From Ascidia mentula (taxonomy: Eukaryota > Chordata > Ascidiacea > Phlebobranchia > Ascidiidae), in the NCBI GenBank assembly GCA_947561715.1, contig OX387199.1, forward strand, positions 18,109,001-18,173,000: a stretch of DNA of 64,000 nt, given 5' to 3'. The first letter of the stretch is position 1. Each line of letters begins with the position of its first letter. The notes below the pieces were generated by a model that made no database searches, had not been told where the DNA came from, and was given only the letters and a program-made list of their open reading frames with translations. A program made the translations under genes and the position numbers. Of this stretch, positions 18,906 through 63,800 are shown one piece after another.

Positions 18906-19008
18906 ACTATATGCTTGCTTGTGCACTGCTTTTATAAGAGACTGACTGTTAAACAACTTTATTCGCACGAGCTTTCGCGAGATTGATCTCGCTTCATCAG
19001 GTGCAGCA
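18906..19008 (-). mobile_element. 103-bp short retroelement-like insertion with a hammerhead-like core
   Basis: Flanked by the 12-bp direct repeat aaggaatttatt (18894-18905 and 19009-19020). The paralogous block at about 10141-10152 has a single aaggaatttatt and no insertion, so this is a filled site with its empty counterpart. On the minus strand the element begins TGCTGCACCTGATGA, then a 6-bp stem GCGAGA/TCTCGC, then GAAA. This is the CUGAUGA - stem II - GAAA order of a hammerhead. A possible stem I (TGCAC/GTGCA) closes it about 50 nt later, but the base expected to be U before the cleavage site is C. A diverged relative lies at 25712-25812. Confidence 0.7.
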
Positions 19009-25101: not shown

Positions 25102-27726
25102 TTAAACCGCATAGCATCCCATCTCTTGTATCTGCTTGTCAATACCAGCAAGTTTATCGGAAGCATTGGCAATTGCTTGTTTTCGCAATTTCTGTAAAGA
25201 AAATTACAGTCACTACATGAATATTACTTTCAACCTTTTGATATATGTATAATGTTATGCCTGTTTACTTTACAATAGATATGGCATTGCTACAACAACC
25301 ATACGATGTAAACTTGCCTCAGTGTAAGTTAATAAATGTTATCAATGCACAAGTCATGCATTCAGACAATGTAGGAAAACATCATTGGCAAGTTCGAACC
25401 ACTACGAAGTAAAAACAAATACTGCTCATGAGAGCAAGGTTCAGTCGGATGCAATCATGTTGGCCAAACGTAACAATATAGTAGAACTACTCCGTTTATT
25501 TCAAACTTAGGCAATATGGAATTTGCTTATCGTCGAATACAGCTCAGTTGTAATGTTTCTTTATGTTTTGGATATTCTTTATTAATGAAACAAACTTGTA
25601 TTGGCTATCAGAAATGTCACCTATTTCTGACAATTTCTGGCTCTACTGTATTCATAATTTAGTTTCTTTAATGCGCGGCGTCAGGTCCACAACTATAATA
25701 CTTGTTGTAATTTGCAGCACCTGAGGAAGCGAGATTAAGCTAGCCAGAGCTCGTGCAATTAGTTTTTTAACAGTCAGTCTCTCATTAAAACAGTGCACCA
25801 GCAAGTACTGTGCATATTTCTAATGAGTCTGCGGCAAAAACCAAGTTTCTGTGCAGTCTGCATCACACAAACTGAACAGCAACATAAATAAATCAGATTT
25901 GTGCATGTATTTAACGTTTTTGTACCAACTTATGTTGAAAACCATTAAATTCACAGTTTCATGTACATTCAAGGTTGATGCATTACCACTGAAAACTTAC
26001 CAGCTGTGCCTGTTTCTTGTCCCAATGCATTTTCGACTTGATCTTTCGCTTGGCTTCCAACGCTTCGATCACCCCCCTGTATTTCCATCCCACTTCATGC
26101 GACAAACGGGAAAGCTCAGCAAACTTTCTCTTGGGCTTCAGTCTGACCACCTTCAGGCAGGATGGAGCAATGAACCGCTTTTTCTGTTTTTGTAAAAACA
26201 ATCAAAAACTCTTTTTAGAGGGAGGTCACATAGAAAATGTCATTTAGTGACGATTTGTCCTGTGTCTCAGATGGTAGTGCATGGTTAATTGCATGATCTT
26301 TACGATTAAAAAAAAAATGTGGTTTCAAAATTCATCACAGACACCTTCTTCTTTAAACATTACCAAAAACCAAGAGTTGTTATGTACACACCCTGTCATA
26401 TGGTGGGGGAATGCCTTCAAACACCTTCAGACGATCAAGTGCTTGAGCTCCACGATAGAGTTTATGTGGCAACATGCCTCTTACAGTTCTCCATAGAATT
26501 TTGGATGGGGCTCTATAACAACACCAGTTGGAGTTAGAAAAAACGGCCATACCTCAGTTGGTTATTCAGTATACATATTTGCCTCAGATGGTAGTGCATG
26601 ATTTGTCACATGCCTTGGACAGATTCGAAAAAGTTCTGTGGTAGCTAACTCATCACTGGCTAATTTACTGCACACACACATAATTAAAAGTAAACCTGAA
26701 ATGGAAGGGACCACGCTTGGGGTTGGTGCGAATTCTTTTCTTCAGAAAATCCAAGTACTTCAACTTGTTACGGTAGAAATTCCCGGAGATGACGATACCT
26801 TCACATCTCACCACAACAACTCTTTGACCTGAAATACATGATTTAAAGGTTTCAATTTTGATTTCTTTATTTTGACAGTACTGATATTGCTTTGGAGATA
26901 AATAAAATTCAACAATTTTACATTAATCAAACGCTTAACTATCAGTTACTTGACCTTAACATGTATTTTATAAACACTCGTACCATTGAGCAATGACTTT
27001 GCTACAACAGCGGCCAATCGACCAAGAAGGTGGTCCTTGGCATCAATTATCCGCACCTGCAAAATATTCCATTAATCAGCATCTGTTTTCATACTCACTA
27101 TGGACAAAAATATCTTTGTGCAATAACTCATAAGACTAAAGTTTTATTGGTGCATAGTTTGAGGTTTTTATTGCAAATCTGGACATAAAAAACAAAACTA
27201 TTAGTACTACAATGAACAGTGCCCTTCCAAAAAAAATTTTGCACAAATTCCAAACTGAACAAAATATAAGCTACATGTAAAAATTAGATGCCCGCTAAGG
27301 TTATAAATTTTGGGTTGGAAAATCAAACGTTTGCTGTTACAAGAAGCAATACAGTTATACATATACTGACCTAAAACTATAGCCTACTTCCAAAGTGAAA
27401 ATATTTTATATAAATCATAGCGATGCCTGCCTCAGTTTCAAATATATGCAAAATCAGAGCACAAGTCATGCATTCAGACAATGTAGGAAATCATCATTGG
27501 CAAGCAAAAGCAGTCTTAAGACAGGCTATATTGCAGGCAATGCAGGGTAGTGTGCCCTCATTCCATTGGAACGTTAAAAAAGTTGAATAATAAGTAGTAT
27601 GAGTAATTTCAAACATAATATGTTAACCTTATACTATGTCACAGTTCTAAAAAAAATGTAAACGTGACTAGGAATACGAGTAAAACGATAAATCGCTTGA
27701 CAAACCTTCACAAATCCGTCAGCCAT
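25102..27726 (-). CDS. RPL13A: Ribosomal protein L13a (uL13), six coding exons
   Basis: Large-subunit ribosomal protein uL13. Minus-strand exons: 27726..27706 (MADGFVK), 27056..26984 ([20 protein letters not shown]), 26828..26696 ([20 protein letters not shown]), 26512..26392 ([20 protein letters not shown]), 26183..26001 ([20 protein letters not shown]) and 25191..25102 ([16 protein letters not shown] to GCYAV-stop). They sum to 621 nt, 206 residues, close to the usual ~203. All junctions are GT/AG in consistent phase. A pyrimidine tract (cttccttttttttatc, minus strand, just before the ATG) fits a 5'TOP transcription start. Introns 1, 3, 4 and 5 each hold a C/D snoRNA, as the vertebrate orthologue does. 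Confidence 0.97.
25311..25394 (-). ncRNA. SNORD34: Box C/D snoRNA, SNORD34-like, RPL13A intron 5
   Basis: 84 nt closed by a perfect 8-bp terminal stem AACTTGCC/GGCAAGTT. Box C ATGATGT (one off consensus), D' CTGA, a C'-like TGACTT and terminal D CTGA. The guide before D' is TCCTACATTGT, complementary to the ACAATGTAGG stretch of 28S rRNA. The fifth base before D' points to a U, as for vertebrate U34, which also sits in an RPL13A intron. Confidence 0.88.
25712..25812 (+). repeat. Diverged copy of the 18.9-kb hammerhead-like element
   Basis: Shares with the minus strand of 18906-19008 the opening GCAGCACCTGAGGAAGCGAG, then GAGCTCGTGC, TTTTTTAACAGTCAGTCTCT and a closing CAGTGCACCAGCAAG. CTGAGGA still fits CUGANGA, but stem II and GAAA have decayed. 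It lies antisense in RPL13A intron 5. Confidence 0.65.
26262..26344 (-). ncRNA. SNORD33: Box C/D snoRNA, SNORD33-like, RPL13A intron 4
   Basis: About 83 nt with terminal stem GTGTC/GACAC, box C GTGATGA and box D CTGA. The guide before D, CATGCACTACCAT, pairs with the GGUGGUGCAUG stretch of 18S rRNA (one G-U). The fifth base before D points to a U, as for vertebrate U33. Confidence 0.88.
26578..26663 (-). ncRNA. SNORD33: Box C/D snoRNA, SNORD33-like, RPL13A intron 3
   Basis: About 86 nt. Box C GTGATGA preceded by TTAGCC, box D CTGA followed by GGCAAA; the terminal stem has one mismatch. The D guide is the same CATGCACTACCAT as in intron 4, while the rest of the molecule differs, so this is an older duplicate. 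Confidence 0.85.
27424..27506 (-). ncRNA. SNORD34: Box C/D snoRNA, SNORD34-like, RPL13A intron 1
   Basis: 83 nt, terminal stem TGCTTGCC/GGCAGGCA (8 bp, one G-U), box C ATGATGA, D' CTGA, D CTGA. The D' guide TCCTACATTGT is the same as in the intron 5 copy; the 3' half has diverged. Confidence 0.9.
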
Positions 27727-32890: not shown

Positions 32891-35800
32891 GTTCCGACCT
32901 CTCATAGAAATGCTATTTTATATTATGTAAGCTGAAACGGTTTATCTGTTTTAAACCTAGGTACGTTATCTTACTTTTAGTAATATCAGAGACTCGTCCA
33001 AGTGTTCCAGAAGCATCACTAAGTCCATATTACTATCCAACTCCTGTAGTTTTTCGGTAATTATTTCTTTTCCTTCCAAAGTTGGGTTGATCCCCAAGTC
33101 GTGGGATTGGGAATTTTTAAACCTGAATTTCAAAAATTATTTCACTATTTATACCAATTACGTAACCAGCTGAATGTGGCATGGGTTATTTCGAATCAGT
33201 AAACGTAAACAAATAAATTGTATTGCGCTGTCGTGGTTTTCAAGCATATAAAATGTCAAGAACTGACCTTTTTGCACAAAAAAAAACCAACGTAGCTTGT
33301 AATCAACCATTGCCAACAGCAAAAAGATAAATATGCCAGCTAGTGTAAAAGCTAGCACAGTGCCACTGTCAACAGCTGCACGGATGAGACCTTACAGGTC
33401 GAAACAGTGCGTGTACACCATGTCTGCAGCTCTCCAATATTATGGCTTTTTTGCACATAAAATATGTTTGTAATGCATGAAATGGTACAAAGCTTTAAAT
33501 TGAAGGAAACTTTAAATTGAACTTTATCAATCTCGAATTGCTCACCTAAAGTACCACGGTATTGATTTGTTAAGTAAACTCGCCGCTTTGAGCAGAAACT
33601 GATGGATATCTAACTGTTTGTCTTGCTGGATGTACATGATCGGCATTCCGGGACAGTGCGGTCTCGTAAGTGTTTTAGTCTTGTAAAAATTGAAAGCGGA
33701 TTGAAAGTTATGCCAGGGTTCTCTGATTATCGTGAAGTACCTGAAAGGGACAGAGAGTTAAAACCAAAATTCCGTGTAAAATAACACAGGTTAGTTAATG
33801 TTGTTCATTAAATTGAAAACAAAGTTGTTAGTTGGGATTGAATTTTGACTTGAAGAAATTGGCAAAACTTATTTTACGCAACTTTACATTTCGTTGTACA
33901 GGTACTGTATCAGTGAGTACATGGTACAAATACAAAATAAAGTATTAACGGTTGTATAAATGCCTGAAACGCCCAATAAGGTAAACAGTTCTGCCAAAAG
34001 AGCAGTAGTTTACCTTACGATTTTGTATAAAAAGGAAAATTTTTATTGTACAACGCTTTATAAACCCTATGTCACTCTTATTAAAGCTGATGTGAACATC
34101 GCCTATACTTTTATAGAGGAAATATTGCTATTTAACGTAAAATTTTTATTTTCAAAATGCTTCAAACATTTTGATGCGTAAATAGTTTTTTTTAATTTTT
34201 TTTGTGATAATCTCTGCTGTTTATATGCTGAACATTACAAACATTTTAACACCGAGAACCATTGCTTGAAAGCATGATGAACCATAGTTAAAATTTGTTT
34301 ATTTTAAGTAGCCTATTTATACCTGGTTTCAAGTGGAAAACACCTTTTCATTTCCTTTGCGTCGAACGTTGTGTGAGAGATGCTGATAGTTGCGTTGTAG
34401 GGGAATTTATATCTGCATCGGAATTTACCGGGAAAACCCCCAACGTACGGAACCGGGCACGCCAACGTGGCAAGCTTGAGTTAGACGAGAATTTTTTAAA
34501 AGATGATGGCGTTTTAAATATGAACGCAACACATTTTAAAGACTTTTACAAAACACGAGACTAGCTATTTATTTTTAAAACAAAACTATTAAAATAAACA
34601 AGAGACCTGCTATTTATTTCGAAAACATGATATTGATTAAATTTAATTCGTAAAGGACTCTATTTTTTATTTTCATAATCAGTCCTGGCACAAATAAACG
34701 TAGCTTTCATTTGATCGAAGTTTCATCTGCTGTTCAGCTAGGCACCAGGGAAAAAATATATTATATGCCTGGCATATCAACAGCAACATAATAGGTATGA
34801 CTCTGTTCGGGATTTAAAAAAAATGTTTACTGTAATATTTGTGACAAACATACTCACATGCAGCATGTCGTTCTTCACCAGAAAATCCCTTAGAAATATT
34901 CTCATTGACGTTGATCCGGTTTTGTGGGTTTTTACAAACACAAAGTTGGAAACGGGAGCTTGACAGGTTTTTGTGACATTTCGATAAGACGGAGCTCTGG
35001 TCTTTGTCAAGATCGGTTGCAGGGTGGTTGGTTCAAGTTTCTAAAAATGATTTTTGGAAACACAGAATGTGAGTCAGGGCGAAATCCTTTCATACTTGTC
35101 GCGATAACAATCGTTCATAATGACATGACATGGCGTCTGCAACGATCTCATAATAACCAGCTAAATTATAAAGTAAATCTTTTTTACCATGTGAACGGCT
35201 AAATGCTAGTTTGTGTGACAGCGTAAATTGTTTCCTCTTCTTTTTACTGCCTGTGTTGCAGTTGGTCATTCTGGTCTGACTACTATCGCTTGATAAGTGC
35301 ACGGTTTGCCTGCCTCGGTCCACCGTAGAGACCGAGGTAGGGCATTCTATTCTATACTTTATTAGTTGCCATGTAAACTACTTGTGAAAAGTCTTAAAGG
35401 TGCCTGCCTTGTGTCTACATATTGGCACAAATTGGAAGACTGATTAGTTCGAAACCAGAAGAAAGGAGATTGCCAAATTCTAGCCCCAAGGCTCATGCCT
35501 TTTAAAGGTCAAGGACCATAAACTCTAAAGTGAGGTTCACCTATAGGAACTCTGTGCCTAAACTAAACGCTACCTATTGCGACATACGTTGCACGATCTA
35601 AAAATGATCGATGCCACATGCCTAAGAGCCGGCCTTTGACAGATTTAAACTGGCGCCACGTATCTAGAAAATGGGCCCAGCAGTTTGCCACGAATTTCAT
35701 TATATCTGCGTTTCGACCACCATGCAGACTGCTGGTACACCATCAATAAAACATGCCTGGCGACACAGCAGTAATTTTGTTTACCACCAGAGGGCGACCC

Positions 35801-44823: not shown

Positions 44824-47800
44824 TCAAAAAATAGCGTACGCAGCTGTCTGGGGAATTATTTTAGCTTTTTCCGGAGGAAAGACTGCAGTCTTTTTTGTTC
44901 TTGTGTTGAAACCATTGCACATCAGTTGACATCGTACATTGGTGATGTTATCCCCGATCATCATTTGCATGCCATTGGGGTCTTCTTGTTTATAGTCAGA
45001 GATCGCTTGATAAACTCCAATCTGTCCTGGATAGAACCAGTTGGTGTCTACAGATGTGGCAGTCGCGTGGTTTGGGTCGAAGTTCGCTAGGAGCGTTTCA
45101 TGAATAAGCCGACCGATCTGGAAAGCATATTGAAATATGTCAACAACTGTGTCGAATGGTTTCAAATAAAGGATCCCAAAAGGTAAAGCACAACGCATTA
45201 GTGCGACGTTTATTTCAACATCGGTGGGGCGTCACAAGCTTATAGTTGGAGAATAAACTGTTTCATTTGCGCTATTGCAGTGACACGAACGATTTATCAG
45301 ATTACGTAAGGGAATTCGTCCTTTAAAATAGGTAAACTCCCTTAATTTTATAAGAAACTGGACGTTTTCCTAGTTCGTCGCTACATCATTTTTTCAGGGT
45401 TGGTTGCATCACAGTTTGGGAAATTTGGGAACCAGCGGTTTAAAACATAGCGGAATACAAATTGGTAGCGAATGTCGACGGTCTATACACGCAACTCTAA
45501 AACCTATGTCAAGCAATTATCTTTTAATGTTCATAATAATTCAATGTGACAAACTTAACTAAACCGTTCGTTTGTTCTAAGTGGATTGAAACCGAAGCGA
45601 ATTCAATACACCACTGCAAACGGATTGAGCGCTCCGTCGCTCCTCTTGCGCAAAAAACGTGGGAACGATTGTTCGAAGCGCATTCGAATTCGCTTCAATT
45701 GTTCATGTAAACGGGTTTAGTTTACTCACGTTGGAGCTGAAAGTGCAAACCACGTGATCACATTCACCCAACAACGCCAAGTCTTGAACAATTCCCCAGA
45801 AACCAGCTTCTGTTTCCCTCTGAGCTTTGGCGGTTTCTGTGTTATGGGTCAAAGTAACGAAGGTGTAGGATGGATATCTGGTACGAATGGACATAAACTT
45901 GTTACGTTGGTCAGGAACTTATCGTTACTTATTTGTAGATAGCGGCATTTCTTTTTGAGGTCGAAACAGCGACCATAAAGACAGCTCAGTTGATGTTTAA
46001 TCTGACAAGTATATTTCGTCGATCAAGGTACAGCTAGCGCCATTATACCCTTTATCCACATGATAAGCAATGTGGAGCCAATAATATGAATTTGTTTGGT
46101 CAGCAAAGTCGTCTGATAGTCACACCAGCTGCACTGATGAGACCTTTTAGGTCGAAACAGTGGCCATCTGTCTGCAGCTTATACACAAACCCTTTATCCA
46201 CACTTGGTCGTCTGACTAGAAAGCTGACACATCATTTAAGTTGTTAAAACAAAAACTAAATGAAAGTTGTACGTACTTTTTACGAGCCTCCTCATGTACG
46301 CTGATGTCATCTGTTGCCAAAAATACGCGGCGCGAGACGTTTTCTTGTTGATGCTTGTGAAGCCATTTCTCCACCTGATCCATGTAGACTTCAATCGACT
46401 GAAACTTAGCTTCCCTCTGCAGCTTGTCTGTTCTTCGTATGTGAACTCTTGGAAACGAAACTATCATTCTGGTATGTAGTAATACGTACACAAGTGGAAG
46501 ACGATATCGCAGTTGCCCTCAAAGCACTTCCAGGAAATAAATGTTGGTTAGCAACATCTTGTTGGATGCATGGTGTGCTTTCCAACAGTTTCATCCCAAC
46601 AAGTCTACTTATCTAGCATATGGATAGAAGTAAAGCTGGATTAGCTATCATCTTATCGGTCACTGCTGTTCCATATTTTTGTATCGTCATGTTGCTGACG
46701 CCTCTAGTGGTTGCGTGAAATTTCCGCGAGGACTTCTAGGCGTTAGTAAATGTGAGTGTGTATGCGTGGCAGTAACGCGAATGACGTGTTGTGGGGATGA
46801 AACGGATTACTTTCTATCTTTTTGCGGTTTTTCAATGAAGACATGTTTTCCCTACTTGTTTGAAGCAGGTCATGCGAACCTCTAGGAAGTGTTACAACTG
46901 CAACCTCACCATAGCTTTCTGGACCGATACCAGCCAATCGCAAAAACACGTGAGAGGAAGCAATTGTGTATTACATCCTAACCCATTTCACCCAATTGTA
47001 GGGCATGTATGCAAACCCATCTGATATTGGTAGAGTTGCAAATCAACGTGACATCTACAATGCCTTAAATATATACTGGTACACTCACCCTACAATGGGG
47101 TGAACGAACCCAATCTTCTGCTTGAGTTCTTCAATTTGTTTTGTGAGGGAAGGTTGTGCTCTGGTGATGTACGTCATCAGCTGACCAACCCACCAAACTT
47201 GTGGTTCTTCACATATTGGTTCCAGTTTGTCCCTCAGAGATTCCGGGAAGGTATTTGGAGCGAACGCCGTGAAGGGTTGAAATATGTCGTTTATGAAAAA
47301 CTTGACCACTCGTTTTCTGCCGCTCGTTTCCTTGACTCCGTCGCCTGACAAAGTCCAACAATACAATTTCAAAGCAGAAGGCTTGCTAATTAATTTAAGG
47401 AGAACCTTACTATCTGTTTGACATTGCTTTTATTTCGGCAATATGAAATACTGCACGTGCTATGTGCATTAAAAAAGCAACAAGTCGCGGTTTGAATTTG
47501 CTGACAGCAATCTGTGGCTTGTGGCTTTTAAGGAAGAGTGGGGAGACTTATACGACACTGACTATCAAGAATGGCAGAGTACAATAAGATACATTAAAAA
47601 CAAAATCGAAAAATGTGGAATTATGTAGCAATTCTTGCTTTTCACACAGCAGCAACATAAGTCAGGCGTTTGAGAGCAAGCAGAAAACCTGGTTGGGTGA
47701 TCTGGGTTCGAATTCCGGTGTAGTAAAAAAAACTCCAAAATTATTACCTTCGAAATTATCGGCCTTATTAAATTCCTCTTCAGACCAATGGGAGCACGTT

Positions 47801-54196: not shown

Positions 54197-57100
54197 TCAA
54201 AAAATAGCGTACGCAGCTGTCTGGGGAATTATTTTAGCTTTTTCCGGAGGAAAGACTGCAGTCTTTTTTGTTCTTGTGTTGAAACCACTGCACATCAGTT
54301 GACATCTTACATTGGTGATGTTATCCCCAATCAACATTTGCATACCATTGGGGTCTTCTTGTTTATAGTCAGAGATCGCTTGATAAACTCCAATCTGTCC
54401 TGGATAGAACCAGTTGGTGTCTACAGATGTGGCAGTCGCGGGGTTTGGGTCGAAGTTCGCTAGGAGCGTTTCATGAATAAGCCGACCGATCTGGAAAGCA
54501 TATTGAAATAAGTCAACAACTGTGTCGAATGGTTTCAAATAAAGGATCCCAAAAGGTAAATCACAACGCATTAGTGCGACGTTTATTTCAATATCGGTGG
54601 GGCGTCGCAAGCTTATAGTTGGAGAATAAACTGTTTCATTTGCGCTATTGCAGTGACACGAACGATTTATCAGATTACGTAAGGGAATTCGTCCTTTAAA
54701 ATAGGTAAACTCCCTTAATTTTATAAAAAAACTGGACGTTTTCCAAGTTCGTCGTCACATCATTTTTTCAGGGTTGGTTGCATCACAGTTTGGGAAATTT
54801 GGGAACCAGCGGTTTAAAACATAGCGGAATACAAATTGGTAGCGAATGTCGACGGTCTATACACGCAACTCCAAAACCTATGTCAAGCACTTATCTTTTA
54901 ATGTTCATAATAATTCAATGTGACAAACTTAAATAAACCGTTCGTTTGTTCCAAGTGGATTGAAACCGAAGCGAATTCAATACACCTCCTGCGAACGGAT
55001 TGAGCGCTCCGTCGCTCCTCTTGCGCAAAAAACGTGGGAGCAATTGTTCGAAGCGCATTCGAATTCGCTTCAATTGTTCATGTAAACGGGTTTAGTTTAC
55101 TCACGTTGGAGCTGAAAGTGCAAACCACGTGATCACATTCACCCAACAACGCCAAGTCTTGAACAATTCCCCAGAAACCAGCTTCTGTTTCCCTCTGAGC
55201 TTTGGCGGTTTCTGTGTTATGGGTCAAAGTAACGAAGGTGTAGGATGGATATCTGGTACGAATGGACATAAACTTGTTACGTTGGTCAGGAACTTATCGT
55301 TACTTATTTGTAGATTCTTTTTGAGGTCGAAACAGCGACCATAAAGACAGCTCAGTTGATGTTTAATCTGACAAGTATATTTCGTCGATCAAGGTACAGC
55401 TAACGCTATTATACCCTTTAACCACACTTGGTCGTCCGACTAGAAAGTTGACACATCATTTAAGTTGTTAAAACAAGAACTAAATGAAAGTTGTACGTAC
55501 TTTTTACGAGCCTCCTTATGTACGCTGACGTCATCTGTTGCCAAAAATACGCGGCGTGAAACGTTTCCGTGTTGATGCTTGTGAAACCATTTCTCCACCT
55601 GATCCATGTAGACTTCAACCGACTGAAACTTAGCTTCCCTCTGCAGCTTGTCTGTTCTTCGTATGTGAACTCTTGGAAACGAAACTATCATTCTGGTATG
55701 TAGTAATACGTACGCAAGTGGAAGACGATATCGCAGTTGCCCTCAAAGCACTTCAAGGAAATAAATGTTGGTTAGCAACATCTTGTTGGATGCATGGTGT
55801 GCTTTCCAACAGTTTCATCCCAACAAGCCTACTTATCTAGCATATGGTTCGAAGGAAAGCTGGATTAGCTATCATCTAATAGGTCACTGCTGTTACATAT
55901 TTTTGTATCTTCATGTCGCTTACGCCTCTAGTAGTTGTGTGTGATTTCCGCGATGACTTATAGTCGTTAGTAAATGTGAGTGTGTATGCGTGGCAGTAAC
56001 GCGAATGACGTGTTGTGGAGATGAAACGGATTACTTTTTTCTTTTTGCGGTTTTTTAATGAAGGCATGTTTGCCCTGCTTATTTGAAGCAGGTCATGCGA
56101 ACCTCTAGGAAGTGTTACAACTGCAACCTCACCATAGCACCATTTCTCGACCAATATCAGCAAAAATATGTGAGATTAAGCAATTGTGTATTACATTCTA
56201 ACCCATTTCACCCAATTGTAGCGCATGTATGCAAACCCATCTGATATTGGTAGAGTTGCAAATCAACGTGACATCTACAATGCCTTAAATATATACTGGC
56301 CACTCACCCTACAATGGGGTGAACGAATCCAATCTTCTGCTTGAGTTCTTCAATTTGTTTTGTGAGGGAAGGTTGTGCTCTGGTGATGTACGTCATCAGC
56401 TGACCAACCCACCAAACTTGTGGTTCTTCACATATTGGTTCCAGTTTGTCCCTCAGAGATTCCGGGAAGGTGTTTGGAGCGAACGCCGTGAAGGGTTGAA
56501 ATATGTCGTTTATGAAAAACTTGACCACTCGTTTCCTGCCGCTCGTTTCCTTGACTCCGTCGCCTGAGAAAGTCCAACAATACAATTTCAAAGCAGAAGG
56601 CTTGCTAATTAATTTGAGGAGAACCCTACCATCTGTTTGACATTGCCTTTATTTCGGCGATATGAAATACTGCACGTGCTATGTGCGTTAAAAAAGCAAC
56701 AAGTCGCGGTTTGAATTTGCTGACAGCAATCTGTGGCTTGTGGCTTTTAAGGAAGAGTGGGGGAAAGTTATACGACACTGACCAAGAATGGCAGAGTACA
56801 ATAAGATACATTAAAAACAAAATCGAAAAATGTGGAATTATGTAGCAATTCTTGCTTTTCACACAGCAGCAACATAAGTCAGGCGTTTGAGAGCAAGCTG
56901 AAAACCTGGTTGGGTGATCTGGGTTCGAATCCCGGTGTAGTAAAAAAAACTCCAAAATTATTACCTTCGAAATTATCGGCCTTATTAAATTCCTCTTCAG
57001 ACCAATGGGAGCACGTTTCGCTCAAGGGCAGATAAGCTTCGTTGATGGATTTAATCGTTGGGTGGCTTTTCAACTCATGGTTTAAAACCAGGGTCCTGTT

Positions 57101-58357: not shown

Positions 58358-58373
58358 GTTGGTTTCCTTTTCT

Positions 58374-58806
58374 TTTGAAACCATTTCTCCACCTGATCCA
58401 TGTAGATTTCAATCGACTGAAACTTAGCTTCCCTCTGCAGCTTGTCTGTTCTTCGTATGTAAACTCCTGGAAACGAAACTATCATTCTGGTATGTAGTAA
58501 TACGTACACAAGTGGAAGACGATATCGCAGTTGCCCTCAAAGCACTTCCAGGAAATAAATGTTGGTTAGCAACATCTTGTTGGATGCATGGTGTGCTTTC
58601 CAACAGTTTCATCCCAACAAGTCTACTTATCTAGCATATGGATAGAAGTAAAGCTGGATTAGCTATCATCTTATAGGTCACTGCTGTTCCATATTTTTGT
58701 ATCATCATGTTTCTTGCGCCTCTAGTAGTTGTGTGTAATTTCCGCGATGACTTTTAGGCGTTAGTAAATGTGAGTGTGTATGCGTGGCAGTAACGCGAAT
58801 GACGTA
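58374..58806 (-). pseudogene. FUT8-like internal fragment at a duplication junction
   Basis: Matches about 62205-62635 of copy C. It includes only the 5' part of the VHIRRTDK exon (58465..58376; VYIRRTDK with a changed histidine) and the upstream intron. Both ends are abrupt: the left abuts exon 1 of copy B, and the right (about 58807) switches to sulfotransferase-flank sequence. Confidence 0.85.
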
Positions 58807-60812: not shown

Positions 60813-63800
60813 TTAAAAAATAGCGTACGCAACAGTCTGGGGAATTATTTTAGCTTTTTCCGGAGGAAAAACTGCAATCTTTTTTGTTCTTGTGTTGAAA
60901 CCATTGCACATCAGTTGACATCGTACATTGGTGATGTTATCCCCAATCAACATTTGCATGCCATTGGGGTCTTCTTGTTTATAGTCAGAGATCGCTTGAT
61001 AAACTCCAATCTGTCCTGGATAAAACCAGTTTGTGTCTACAGATGTGGCAGTCGCGGGGTTTGGGTCGAAGTTCGCTAGGAGCATTTCATGAATAAGCCG
61101 ACCGATCTGGAAAGCATATTGAAATATGTCAACAACTGTGTCGAATGGTTTCAAATAGAGGATCCCAAAAGGTAAATCACAACGCATTAGTGCGACGTTT
61201 ATTTCAATATCGGTGGGGCGTCGCAAGCTTATAGTTGGAGAATAAACTGTTACATTTGCGCTATTGCAGTGACACGAACGATTTATCAGATTACGTAAGG
61301 GAATTCGTCCTTTAAAATAGGTAAACTCCCTTAATTTTATAAAAAACTGGACGTTTTCCTAGTTCGTCGCCACATCATTTTTTCAGGGTTGGTTGCATCA
61401 CAGTTTGGGAAATTTGGGAACCAGCGGTTTAAAACATAGCGGAATACAAATTGGTAGCGAATGTCGACGGTCTATACACGCAACTCTAAAACTTATGTCA
61501 AGCACTTATATTTTAATGTTCATCTTTATAATAATGCAATGTGTCAAACTTAACAAAACCGTTCGTCTGTTCCAAGTGGATTGAAACCGAAGCGAATTCA
61601 ATACACCTCCAGCGAACGGATTGAGCGCTCCGTCGCTCCTCTTGCGCAAAAAATGTGGAAGTGATTGTTCGAAGCGCATTCGAATTCGCTTCAATTGTTC
61701 ATGTAAACGGGCTTAGTTTACTCACGTTGGAGCTGAAAGTGCAAACCACGTGATCACATTCACCCAACAACGCCAAGTCTTGAACAATTCCCCAGAAACC
61801 AGCTTCTGTTTCCCTCTGAGCTTTGGCGGTTTCGGTGTTATGGGTCAAAATAACGAAGGTGTAGGATGGATATCTGGTACGAACGGACATAAACTTGTTA
61901 CGTTGGTCAGGAACTTATCGTTACTTATTTGTAGATTCTTTTTGAGGTCGAAACAGCGACCATAAAGACAGCTCAGTTGATGTTTAATCTGACAAATAAA
62001 TTTCGTCGATCAAGGTACAGCTAGCGCCATTATACCCTTTATCCACACTTGGTCGTCTGACTAGAAAGTTGACACATCATTTAAGTTGTTAAAACAAGAA
62101 CTAAATGAAAGTTGTACGTACTTTTTACGAGCCTCCTCATGTACGCTGACGTCATCTGTTGCCAAAAATACGCGGCGCGAGACGTTTCCGTGTTGACGCT
62201 TTTGAAACCATTTCTCCACCTGATCCATGTAGATTTCAATCGACTGAAACTTAGCTTCCCTCTGCAGCTTGTCTGTTCTTCGTATGTGAACTCTTGGAAA
62301 CGAAACTATCATTCTGGTATGTAGTAATACGTACACAAGTGGAAGACGATATCGCAGGTGCCCTCAAAGCACTTCCAGGAAATAAATGTTGGTTAGCAAC
62401 ATCTTGTTGGATGCATGGTGTGCTTTCCAACAGTTTCATCCCAACAAGTCTACTTATCTAGCATATGGATAGAAGTAAAGCTGGATTAGCTATCATCTTA
62501 TCGGTCACTGCTGTTCTATATTTTTGTATCGTCATGTTTCTTACGCCTCTAGTGGTTGCGTGTGATTTCCGCGACGACTTTTAGGCGTTAGTAAATGTGA
62601 GTGTGTATGCGTGGCAGTAGCGCGAATGACGTGTTGTGGGGATGAAACGGATTACTTCCTATCTTTTTGCGCTTTTCAATGAAGGCATGTTTGCCCTGCT
62701 TGTTTGAAGCAGGTCATGCGAACCTCTAGGAAGTGTTACAACTGCAACCTCACCATAGCTTTCTCGACCGATATCAGCAAAAATATGTGAGATTAAGCAA
62801 TTGTGTAATACATCCTAACTCATTTCACCCAATTGTAGCGCATGTATGCAAACCCATCTGATATTGGTAGAGTTGCAATCAACAGCATTATTTCATTTAA
62901 GTGGAAGAACGTGACATCTACAATGCCTGAAATATATACTGGCCACTCACCCTACAATGGGGTGAACGAACCCAATCTTCTGCTTGAGTTCTTCGATTTG
63001 TTTTGTGAGGGAAGGTTGTGCTCTGGTGATGTACGTCATCAGCTGACCAACCCACCAAACTTGTGGTTCTTCACATATTGGTTCCAGTTTGTCCTTCAGA
63101 GATTCCGGGAAGGTGTTTGGAGCGAACGCCGTGAAGGGTTGAAATATGTCGTTTATGAAAAACTTGACCACTCGTTTTCTGCCGCTCGTTTCCTTGACTC
63201 CGTCGCCTGAGAAAATCCAACAATACAATTTCAAAGCAGAAGGCTTGTTAATTAATTTAAGGAGAACCTTACCATCTGTTTGACATTGCCTTTATTTCGG
63301 CGATATGAAATACTGCACGTGTTATGTGCATTAAAAAAGCAACAAGTCGCGGTTTGAATTTGCTGACAGCAATCTGTGGCTTGTGGCTTTTAAGGAAGAG
63401 TGGGGGAAAGTTATACGACACTGACCAAGAATGGCAGGGTACAATAAGATACATTAAAAGCAAAATCGAAAAATGTGGAATTATGTAGCAATTCTTGCTT
63501 TTCAAACAGCAGCAACATAAGTCAGGCGTTTGAGAGCAAGCAGAAAACCTGGTTGGGTGATCTGGGTTCGAATCCCGGTGTAGTAAAAAAAACTCCAAAA
63601 TTATTACCTTCGAAAATATCGGCCTTATTAAATTCCTCTTCAGACCAATGGGAGCACGTTTCGCTCAAGGGCAGATAAGCTTCGTTGATGGATTTAATCG
63701 TTGGGTGGCTTTTCAACTCATGGTTTAAAACCAGGGTCCTGTTAGTTCCTGCAGCAAGTAGAAAACACATACCGATGTAGTGGAGTTGGCATCCGAACCC

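Follow-up and report, generated by a model that had tools for sequence, protein, structure and literature searches.

The window analysed here, a 64,000-nucleotide stretch of the Ascidia mentula genome, contains three copies of a FUT8-like gene. One of these copies, on the minus strand (PF19745 match with E = 2e-33 when two exon translations are joined), carries a 128-bp insertion at 46061-46188. The insert sits between two FUT8-like exons in antisense orientation, so its ribozyme would be absent from the pre-mRNA of that gene. As the initial annotation had proposed, the insertion is framed by a 14-bp duplication, with ACCCTTTATCCACA present at both 46047-46060 and 46189-46202. The first 35 bases of the insert are the reverse complement of the sequence just downstream of the ribozyme, creating an inverted and a direct arm that overlap by 2 nt. 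In the features below, unit positions refer to a 285-nt repeat in which position 1 is the base that follows the predicted cut, and S1 and S2 are the two sites at which its arms start.

45730-45876, minus strand: next exon of the FUT8-like host gene, borders approximate
46047-46060, no strand: left copy of the 14-bp target-site duplication, ACCCTTTATCCACA, present as a single copy in paralogue C
46061-46095, minus strand: inverted 5′ arm, unit positions 47 to 13 in reverse complement, starting at S2 and stopping at S1
46094-46188, plus strand: direct 3′ arm, unit positions 207-285 and then 1-16, with its end at S1 and spanning the predicted cleavage junction
46127-46179, plus strand: type I hammerhead ribozyme motif, with cleavage predicted after C46172 and only a weak Rfam match
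46189-46202, no strand: right copy of the 14-bp target-site duplication, ACCCTTTATCCACA
46276-46446, minus strand: host exon of the FUT8-like alpha-1,6-fucosyltransferase gene (PF19745), borders approximate
55413-55426, no strand: empty site in paralogue B, ACCCTTTAACCACA, one mismatch
62034-62047, no strand: empty site in paralogue C, exactly ACCCTTTATCCACA

Empty sites had been reported in both paralogues. The site is indeed uninterrupted in each, but it is identical to ACCCTTTATCCACA only in paralogue C, with paralogue B differing by one mismatch. A partial fourth FUT8-like copy lies at 58372-58805 of the window and is 96.5% identical to approximately 46354-46787. All three FUT8-like copies also carry a 23-bp piece (45954-45976, ~55326, and ~61947) that is 87% identical to the 3′ half of the hammerhead, possibly an older relic from before the triplication. 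Elsewhere in the window, an older hammerhead-like stretch at 33370-33409 (plus strand) is identical to the unit at 36/40 positions and has a broken core, CGGATGA, while CTGATGAAGCGAGATCAATCTCGCGAAA at 18973-19000 (minus strand) is similar to a hammerhead-like motif at the 3′ end of a Penelope-like element (L064). Two SNORD33-family snoRNAs are found in tandem at 26261-26345 and 26578-26663 (minus strand).

The 285-nt unit and its hammerhead motif

A genome search with 46061-46202 returned at least 66 matches among 40 scored candidates, many of which cover only the right-hand 96 bases of the insert, with the left-hand 35 bases adjoining in the opposite orientation. The loci read show 285-nt units arranged head-to-tail, as in the array of three units at C69:1657165-1658018, and with the whole unit as query at least 174 matches were obtained among 40 scored of 2,091 candidates. 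The unit has a GC content of 47.4%, and its reading frames never remain open for the 95 codons of a full lap: in a tripled unit, at most 94 aa pass without a stop. The initial annotation had described a mobile, ribozyme-bearing, non-coding element, and this description holds for a dispersed repeat with many copies that carry target duplications. The 128-nt piece, however, is not the mobile unit that it was taken to be; the unit is the 285-nt tandem repeat, and the 128-bp segment is a two-armed miniature insertion. Among most small relatives of the 128-bp copy the junctions are unlike, indicating that these relatives are mostly separate events and not offspring of one 128-nt unit. The junction GAATTGGTCAGC occurs at 5/13 places and was considered as a sign that the 128-bp unit moves, but this was rejected because duplicated genomic segments are involved: the places on C2 and C67 have common flanks, as do two copies at 2.7 Mb on C69, with one further place on C69.

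The hammerhead was said to be complete, and each of its core elements can be placed (CTGATGA, GAAA, and the GTC triplet), together with a 7-bp stem I (AGCTGCA/TGCAGCT), a 5-bp stem II, and a 4-bp stem III in which an A-U pair is counted, an architecture that makes it type I. A 37-nt core pattern, allowing up to 3 mismatches, was found at 1,547 places (811 + 736) in the 195.8-Mb genome, while a reversed-pattern control was found at 0, and thus the motif is not a product of chance. An Rfam covariance search had been named in the initial annotation as a check, and here the motif, though complete, fell below the cut-offs at the locus and in its relatives. A gathering-score scan of the window yielded no hammerhead; a permissive scan of the locus yielded a single weak match, to RF00008 Hammerhead_3, which scores 20.6 bits where 48.5 is required (E = 0.66); and an E-value scan of nine relatives yielded no hammerhead above threshold. 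The miRNA-like Rfam matches among these nine relatives were rejected, since they sit on inverted repeats. A genome search with RF00163 gave no match and was equally silent in its 14 control genomes, so its silence carries no information. The predicted hammerhead fold has an energy of -16.0 kcal/mol versus -17.4 kcal/mol for the competing best fold, under a nearest-neighbour model that ignores the catalytic and tertiary core. With flanks held fixed, CTGATGA is intact at 551/635 places versus 237/595 for the adjacent 7-mer, a single control that by eye includes a base varying between copy groups; this conservation is supportive of selection on the ribozyme, though not proof of it.

Insertion scars and the two start sites

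From 80 hammerhead loci we removed 22 for overlapping an insertion already represented and 6 for being segmental duplicates, leaving 52 distinct loci. This sample is not random, as similarity guided the choice of 60/80 loci (the window insert was the query for L001-L030, the whole unit for L031-L060) and an exact core that of the other 20. Its least biased part consists of the first 20 exact-core loci in coordinate order on C1, of which 17 are distinct, from a C1 total of 67. Further copies with direct repeats, which the initial annotation had anticipated, are common: 41/52 loci reach a target duplication score of 11 or more, versus 0/204 control placements in flanking DNA. At one of these 41 loci (L048) the duplication was mis-called inside the element owing to an alignment gap, where by eye an imperfect duplication of 10-11 bp is present. 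Where a duplication could be used (43 loci), its length is 12-15 bp in 33 cases and ranges from 7 to 30 bp in the others. Just outside the duplication, an A is found at -2 in 33/43 loci (P ~1e-9), a T at +2 in 30/43 (P ~1e-7), and a T at +3 in 27/43 (P ~1e-5), a roughly symmetric arrangement indicating that each strand tends to be cut before NTT.

By script scoring, 39/52 loci are two-armed, with the arms head-to-head, and 13/52 are one-armed. Of the two-armed loci, 35/39 pair an S1 end with an S2 end, while the S2/S2 combination is found in 0/39 and S1/S1 in 1/39. With three loci set aside because one of their ends falls outside both sites, 35/36 insertions are S1/S2, which has a probability of ~1e-9 under free choice. 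The script assigned ends to S1 within unit positions 5-30 and to S2 within 36-60, and in 33 two-armed S1/S2 loci with a duplication the S1 ends fall at 8-20 and the S2 ends at 40-51, except for the unreliable S1 end of L004 (27), which was placed with 8/20 mismatches. Two S1/S2 loci without a duplication, L005 and L061, were classed by their alignment ends, and L048, scored as one-armed by the script, is by eye two-armed and a further S1/S2 case. The C1 subset, with 8 one-armed and 9 two-armed loci among its 17, gives S1/S2 in 8/9. The single S1/S1 locus (L024, C67:9118172-9121267) lacks a duplication and has flanks that are inverted copies of each other, which makes it a foldback and not a simple insertion. 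The remaining exceptions combine S2 with u1 (L026, where the right-end arm starts at the 3′ end expected from cleavage, unit 285, ...CTGTC), unit 264 with S2 (L047), and unit 167 with S1 (L081, which is diverged and without a duplication). Two duplicated copies of a small insertion (L096/L097) have a right end inside the hammerhead, at about unit 264, like L047, and thus a further atypical start point.

The arms also bear on the nature of the template. Every S1 arm is at least 51 nt long (35/35) and hence spans the predicted cut junction, indicating that the template was either uncut or re-closed, and the longest arm extends for 1,679 nt, or about six laps (L086). Over 23 loci, sequences diverge by 0.91% inside single arms, by 1.55% from one arm of an insertion to the other, and by 2.04% from insertion to insertion. 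Opposite arms differ at 98/6,319 positions, with 82/98 of these differences coming from L042 and L048 and 16/4,858 remaining without these two loci; L052 has 0/1,947. Near-identical arms would be an outcome of copying one circle, although recent uniform arrays could produce the same result. Four loci do not fit a single circle unless they changed later, namely L042 and L048 (5-6% difference between arms), L005 (4/82), and L044 (3/134). A few arms (4/35 S2 arms and 1/35 S1 arms) terminate no more than 5 nt from the cut site and may reflect run-off on linear monomers. The stop of an S2 arm at S1, as in the window copy, was considered as proof that both arms come from one RNA molecule but was downgraded to a hint, as the sample is biased: S2 arms are shorter than 45 nt in 10/35 loci, and 9/10 of these were found with the window insert as query.

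Mobilisation and rival explanations

A genome search for GIY-YIG domains gave at least 150 matches among 150 scored of 382 candidates, many of them in frames of 700-950 codons, and some of the arrays run minus and then plus. Here, the label "Penelope-like" rests on this array layout. Such head-to-head arrangements are found at C67:6134028-6146916, where two minus frames and three plus frames have a spacing of 2,870 bp within each orientation, and at C52:9243979-9259647, with three minus and three plus frames spaced by ~3,493 bp. Four partial frames were scanned, and GIY-YIG was recovered in 4/4 and RVT_1 in 1/4 (L067, the longest; E = 5e-4, below the curated cut-off). Mitochondrial COX1 (C79:4437-5774) contains five in-frame TGA codons, pointing to a code that reads TGA. 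Inverted arms are present in 6/12 of the GIY-YIG loci examined, where L072 and L073 represent one insertion and the arms of L063 and L070 exceed the stretch read. All 3/3 GIY-YIG insertions with both ends readable have a one-ended tail, which measures 35 nt in L072/L073, 38 nt in L064, and 34 nt in L067, and their duplications by eye are ~10 bp, 9 bp with one mismatch, and 13 bp, respectively. In L067 (C70:5716119 region), the 13-bp duplication is followed by GTT. Among the insertions read, this scar is the nearest to that of the retrozyme, making L067 the first helper candidate. Three Penelope families in which the junction of ORF and pLTR was read (L093-L095) have hammerhead-like motifs of their own, and a comparison of their start regions with that of the retrozyme gave short stretches of likeness only (E = 0.15 or worse). 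Because no start region is common to the retrozyme and the Penelope families read, a helper enzyme is something we can only infer. The S1/S2 pairing of ends, along with the same one-ended tail on Penelope-like insertions, nonetheless supports Penelope-type two-ended priming on uncut or circular RNA.

We favour, with a probability of roughly 0.7, a reading in which the window carries a miniature insertion of a metazoan non-LTR retrozyme whose 285-nt unit carries a type I hammerhead and which is mobilised in trans by Penelope-type machinery (GIY-YIG plus reverse transcriptase). Tandem units would be transcribed, the hammerhead would cleave the transcript into monomers, and the monomers would close into circles. 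An endonuclease would then cut both strands of the target, leading mostly to 12-15-bp duplications, and each DNA 3′ end would prime reverse transcription inside the RNA, at S1 (~8-20 nt past the cut) on one side and S2 (~40-51 nt) on the other. The outcome would be two head-to-head arms with exactly one tail, which would be joined in the middle. For the window copy, the S2 arm would extend from S2 back to S1 only and the S1 arm for 95 nt, giving 128 bp. A more tentative proposal, to which we give slightly less than even odds, is that the Penelope-type complex grips one circular RNA at two start sites ~31 nt apart, one per DNA end, with both cDNAs running round the same circle. If true, every normal insertion would have exactly one tail, and the 128-bp copy would be a case of the second cDNA stopping where the first begins. 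If general, this configuration would tie animal retrozymes to Penelope enzymes through a DNA scar, and not through co-occurrence.

In a rival account, the template would be an uncut tandem transcript in place of a circle, leaving the ribozyme without a role in insertion; for insertion in vitro, a Penelope hammerhead proved dispensable, with unprocessed RNA as the main substrate (PMC11167929), multi-unit arrays are available as possible sources, and L042 and L048 hold unlike units in one insertion. However, units are near-identical in most arrays, both arms included (as in L052), whereas insertions differ by 2%, and the core 7-mer is intact more often than its neighbour. An uncut template is therefore a possibility that deserves to be taken seriously, at odds of well under one half. 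The enzyme itself could also be of a different kind, with a LINE-type enzyme moving the retrozyme and the inverted arms arising through ordinary twin priming of truncated transcripts. In favour of this account, 12-15-bp target duplications and inverted 5′ segments are also known in LINE-mobilised elements. Twin priming is, however, expected to give scattered second priming points, whereas the inverted end is located here at a fixed site ~31 nt from the other start, with the choice of sites being complementary in 35/39 loci. In addition, no poly(A) or simple-repeat 3′ tail, as expected of LINEs and SINEs, was seen by eye at the mapped ends, which stop at TTATACACAAA or GCTTATCATA-like sites, and the GIY-YIG elements with both ends readable have the same scar in 3/3 cases. 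Mobilisation by LINEs is thus unlikely, although LINEs were left possible as helpers in passages by the authors who described metazoan retrozymes (PMC7229834).

Two further explanations concern the host locus. The motif lies between two exons of the FUT8-like gene, and the hammerhead could be imagined to act in cis on the host transcript, but it occupies the strand opposite to the gene, is absent from both paralogues, and is part of a dispersed repeat. Self-cleavage of the FUT8-like transcript was rejected for the wrong strand, and we regard a cis function as very improbable. The segment might instead be ancestral and precisely deleted from paralogues B and C. Formally, one insertion plus two deletions could account for the pattern, but exact loss from both paralogues is far less probable, and dozens of unrelated loci carry the same element with different duplications, so that this history has next to no credibility. 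The preferred reading, a retrozyme mobilised in trans by Penelope-type machinery, is compared with known systems below.

Comparison with known systems

By its features the element belongs with the metazoan non-LTR retrozymes. It has a type I hammerhead with a complete core, a tandem repeat within ~150-450 bp (285 nt), a non-coding sequence with GC below 50% (0.474), and target duplications of more than 4 bp (41/52, one of them mis-called). Its mapped ends correspond to start sites and not to LTR termini. Metazoan retrozymes were described by Cervera and de la Pena 2020 (PMC7229834), in passages of which type I hammerheads, units of 170-400 nt, tandem copies, low GC, duplications of more than 4 bp, and many motifs per genome are reported, all of which resemble the element described here, and Penelope elements or LINEs are suggested as movers. 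Penelope elements are elsewhere in these accounts called a "strong candidate" on the basis of coexistence and of hammerheads in both (passages of PMC7229834, with similar statements in PMC7761336 and PMC8969392). Unlike metazoan retrozymes as described in those passages of PMC7229834, the insertions here are head-to-head and two-armed with two fixed start sites, and the word "inverted" is absent from the main text of that paper. The motif also differs from those of metazoan retrozymes in that stem I lacks an internal loop and loop II measures 3 nt, leaving no obvious partners for loop-loop contacts. In the tunicate Didemnum, nine type I hammerhead loci were listed with a genome from 2021 (passages of PMC8704543). 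Within the literature searched, mostly as article listings, no report of head-to-head retrozymes or of a one-tail rule was found. Plant LTR retrozymes (article listing, PMC4918200) are likewise non-autonomous and hammerhead-bearing, with a proposed circular RNA intermediate. In contrast to the element here, their hammerheads are of type III and reside in LTRs, their duplications span 4 bp, and they have primer-binding sites (passages of PMC7229834).

At insertion, the element is one that acts like a Penelope-like element yet is not itself one, as judged from its sequence. Head-to-head inverted copies with a one-ended tail are found in 35/39 two-armed loci, while the 285-nt non-coding unit cannot encode the reverse transcriptase and GIY-YIG endonuclease of a Penelope-like element. 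In Adineta vaga Penelope-like elements, a tail was described in 2013 as optional on one of the inverted pLTRs (passages of PMC3846280), and a Penelope protein, once purified, cuts both strands and extends them, with two internal start sites bounding the tail (Frangieh and colleagues 2024, PMC11167929). Head-to-head copies, a one-ended tail of ~31 nt, a hammerhead near the start sites, and starts internal to the RNA are thus features in common with these systems (passages of PMC3846280; PMC11167929). The retrozyme duplications are mostly 12-15 bp, versus 8-10 bp in the Penelope-like cases published in passages of PMC3846280 and 13, ~10, and 9 bp in the three Penelope-like insertions here. Complementary start-site use leaves a fingerprint at the DNA level, for which any sequenced animal can be screened, and the tiny 285-nt RNA would be a convenient substrate for dissecting Penelope priming on both strands. 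In essence, the one-tail, head-to-head architecture links retrozymes and Penelope elements via their insertion scar.
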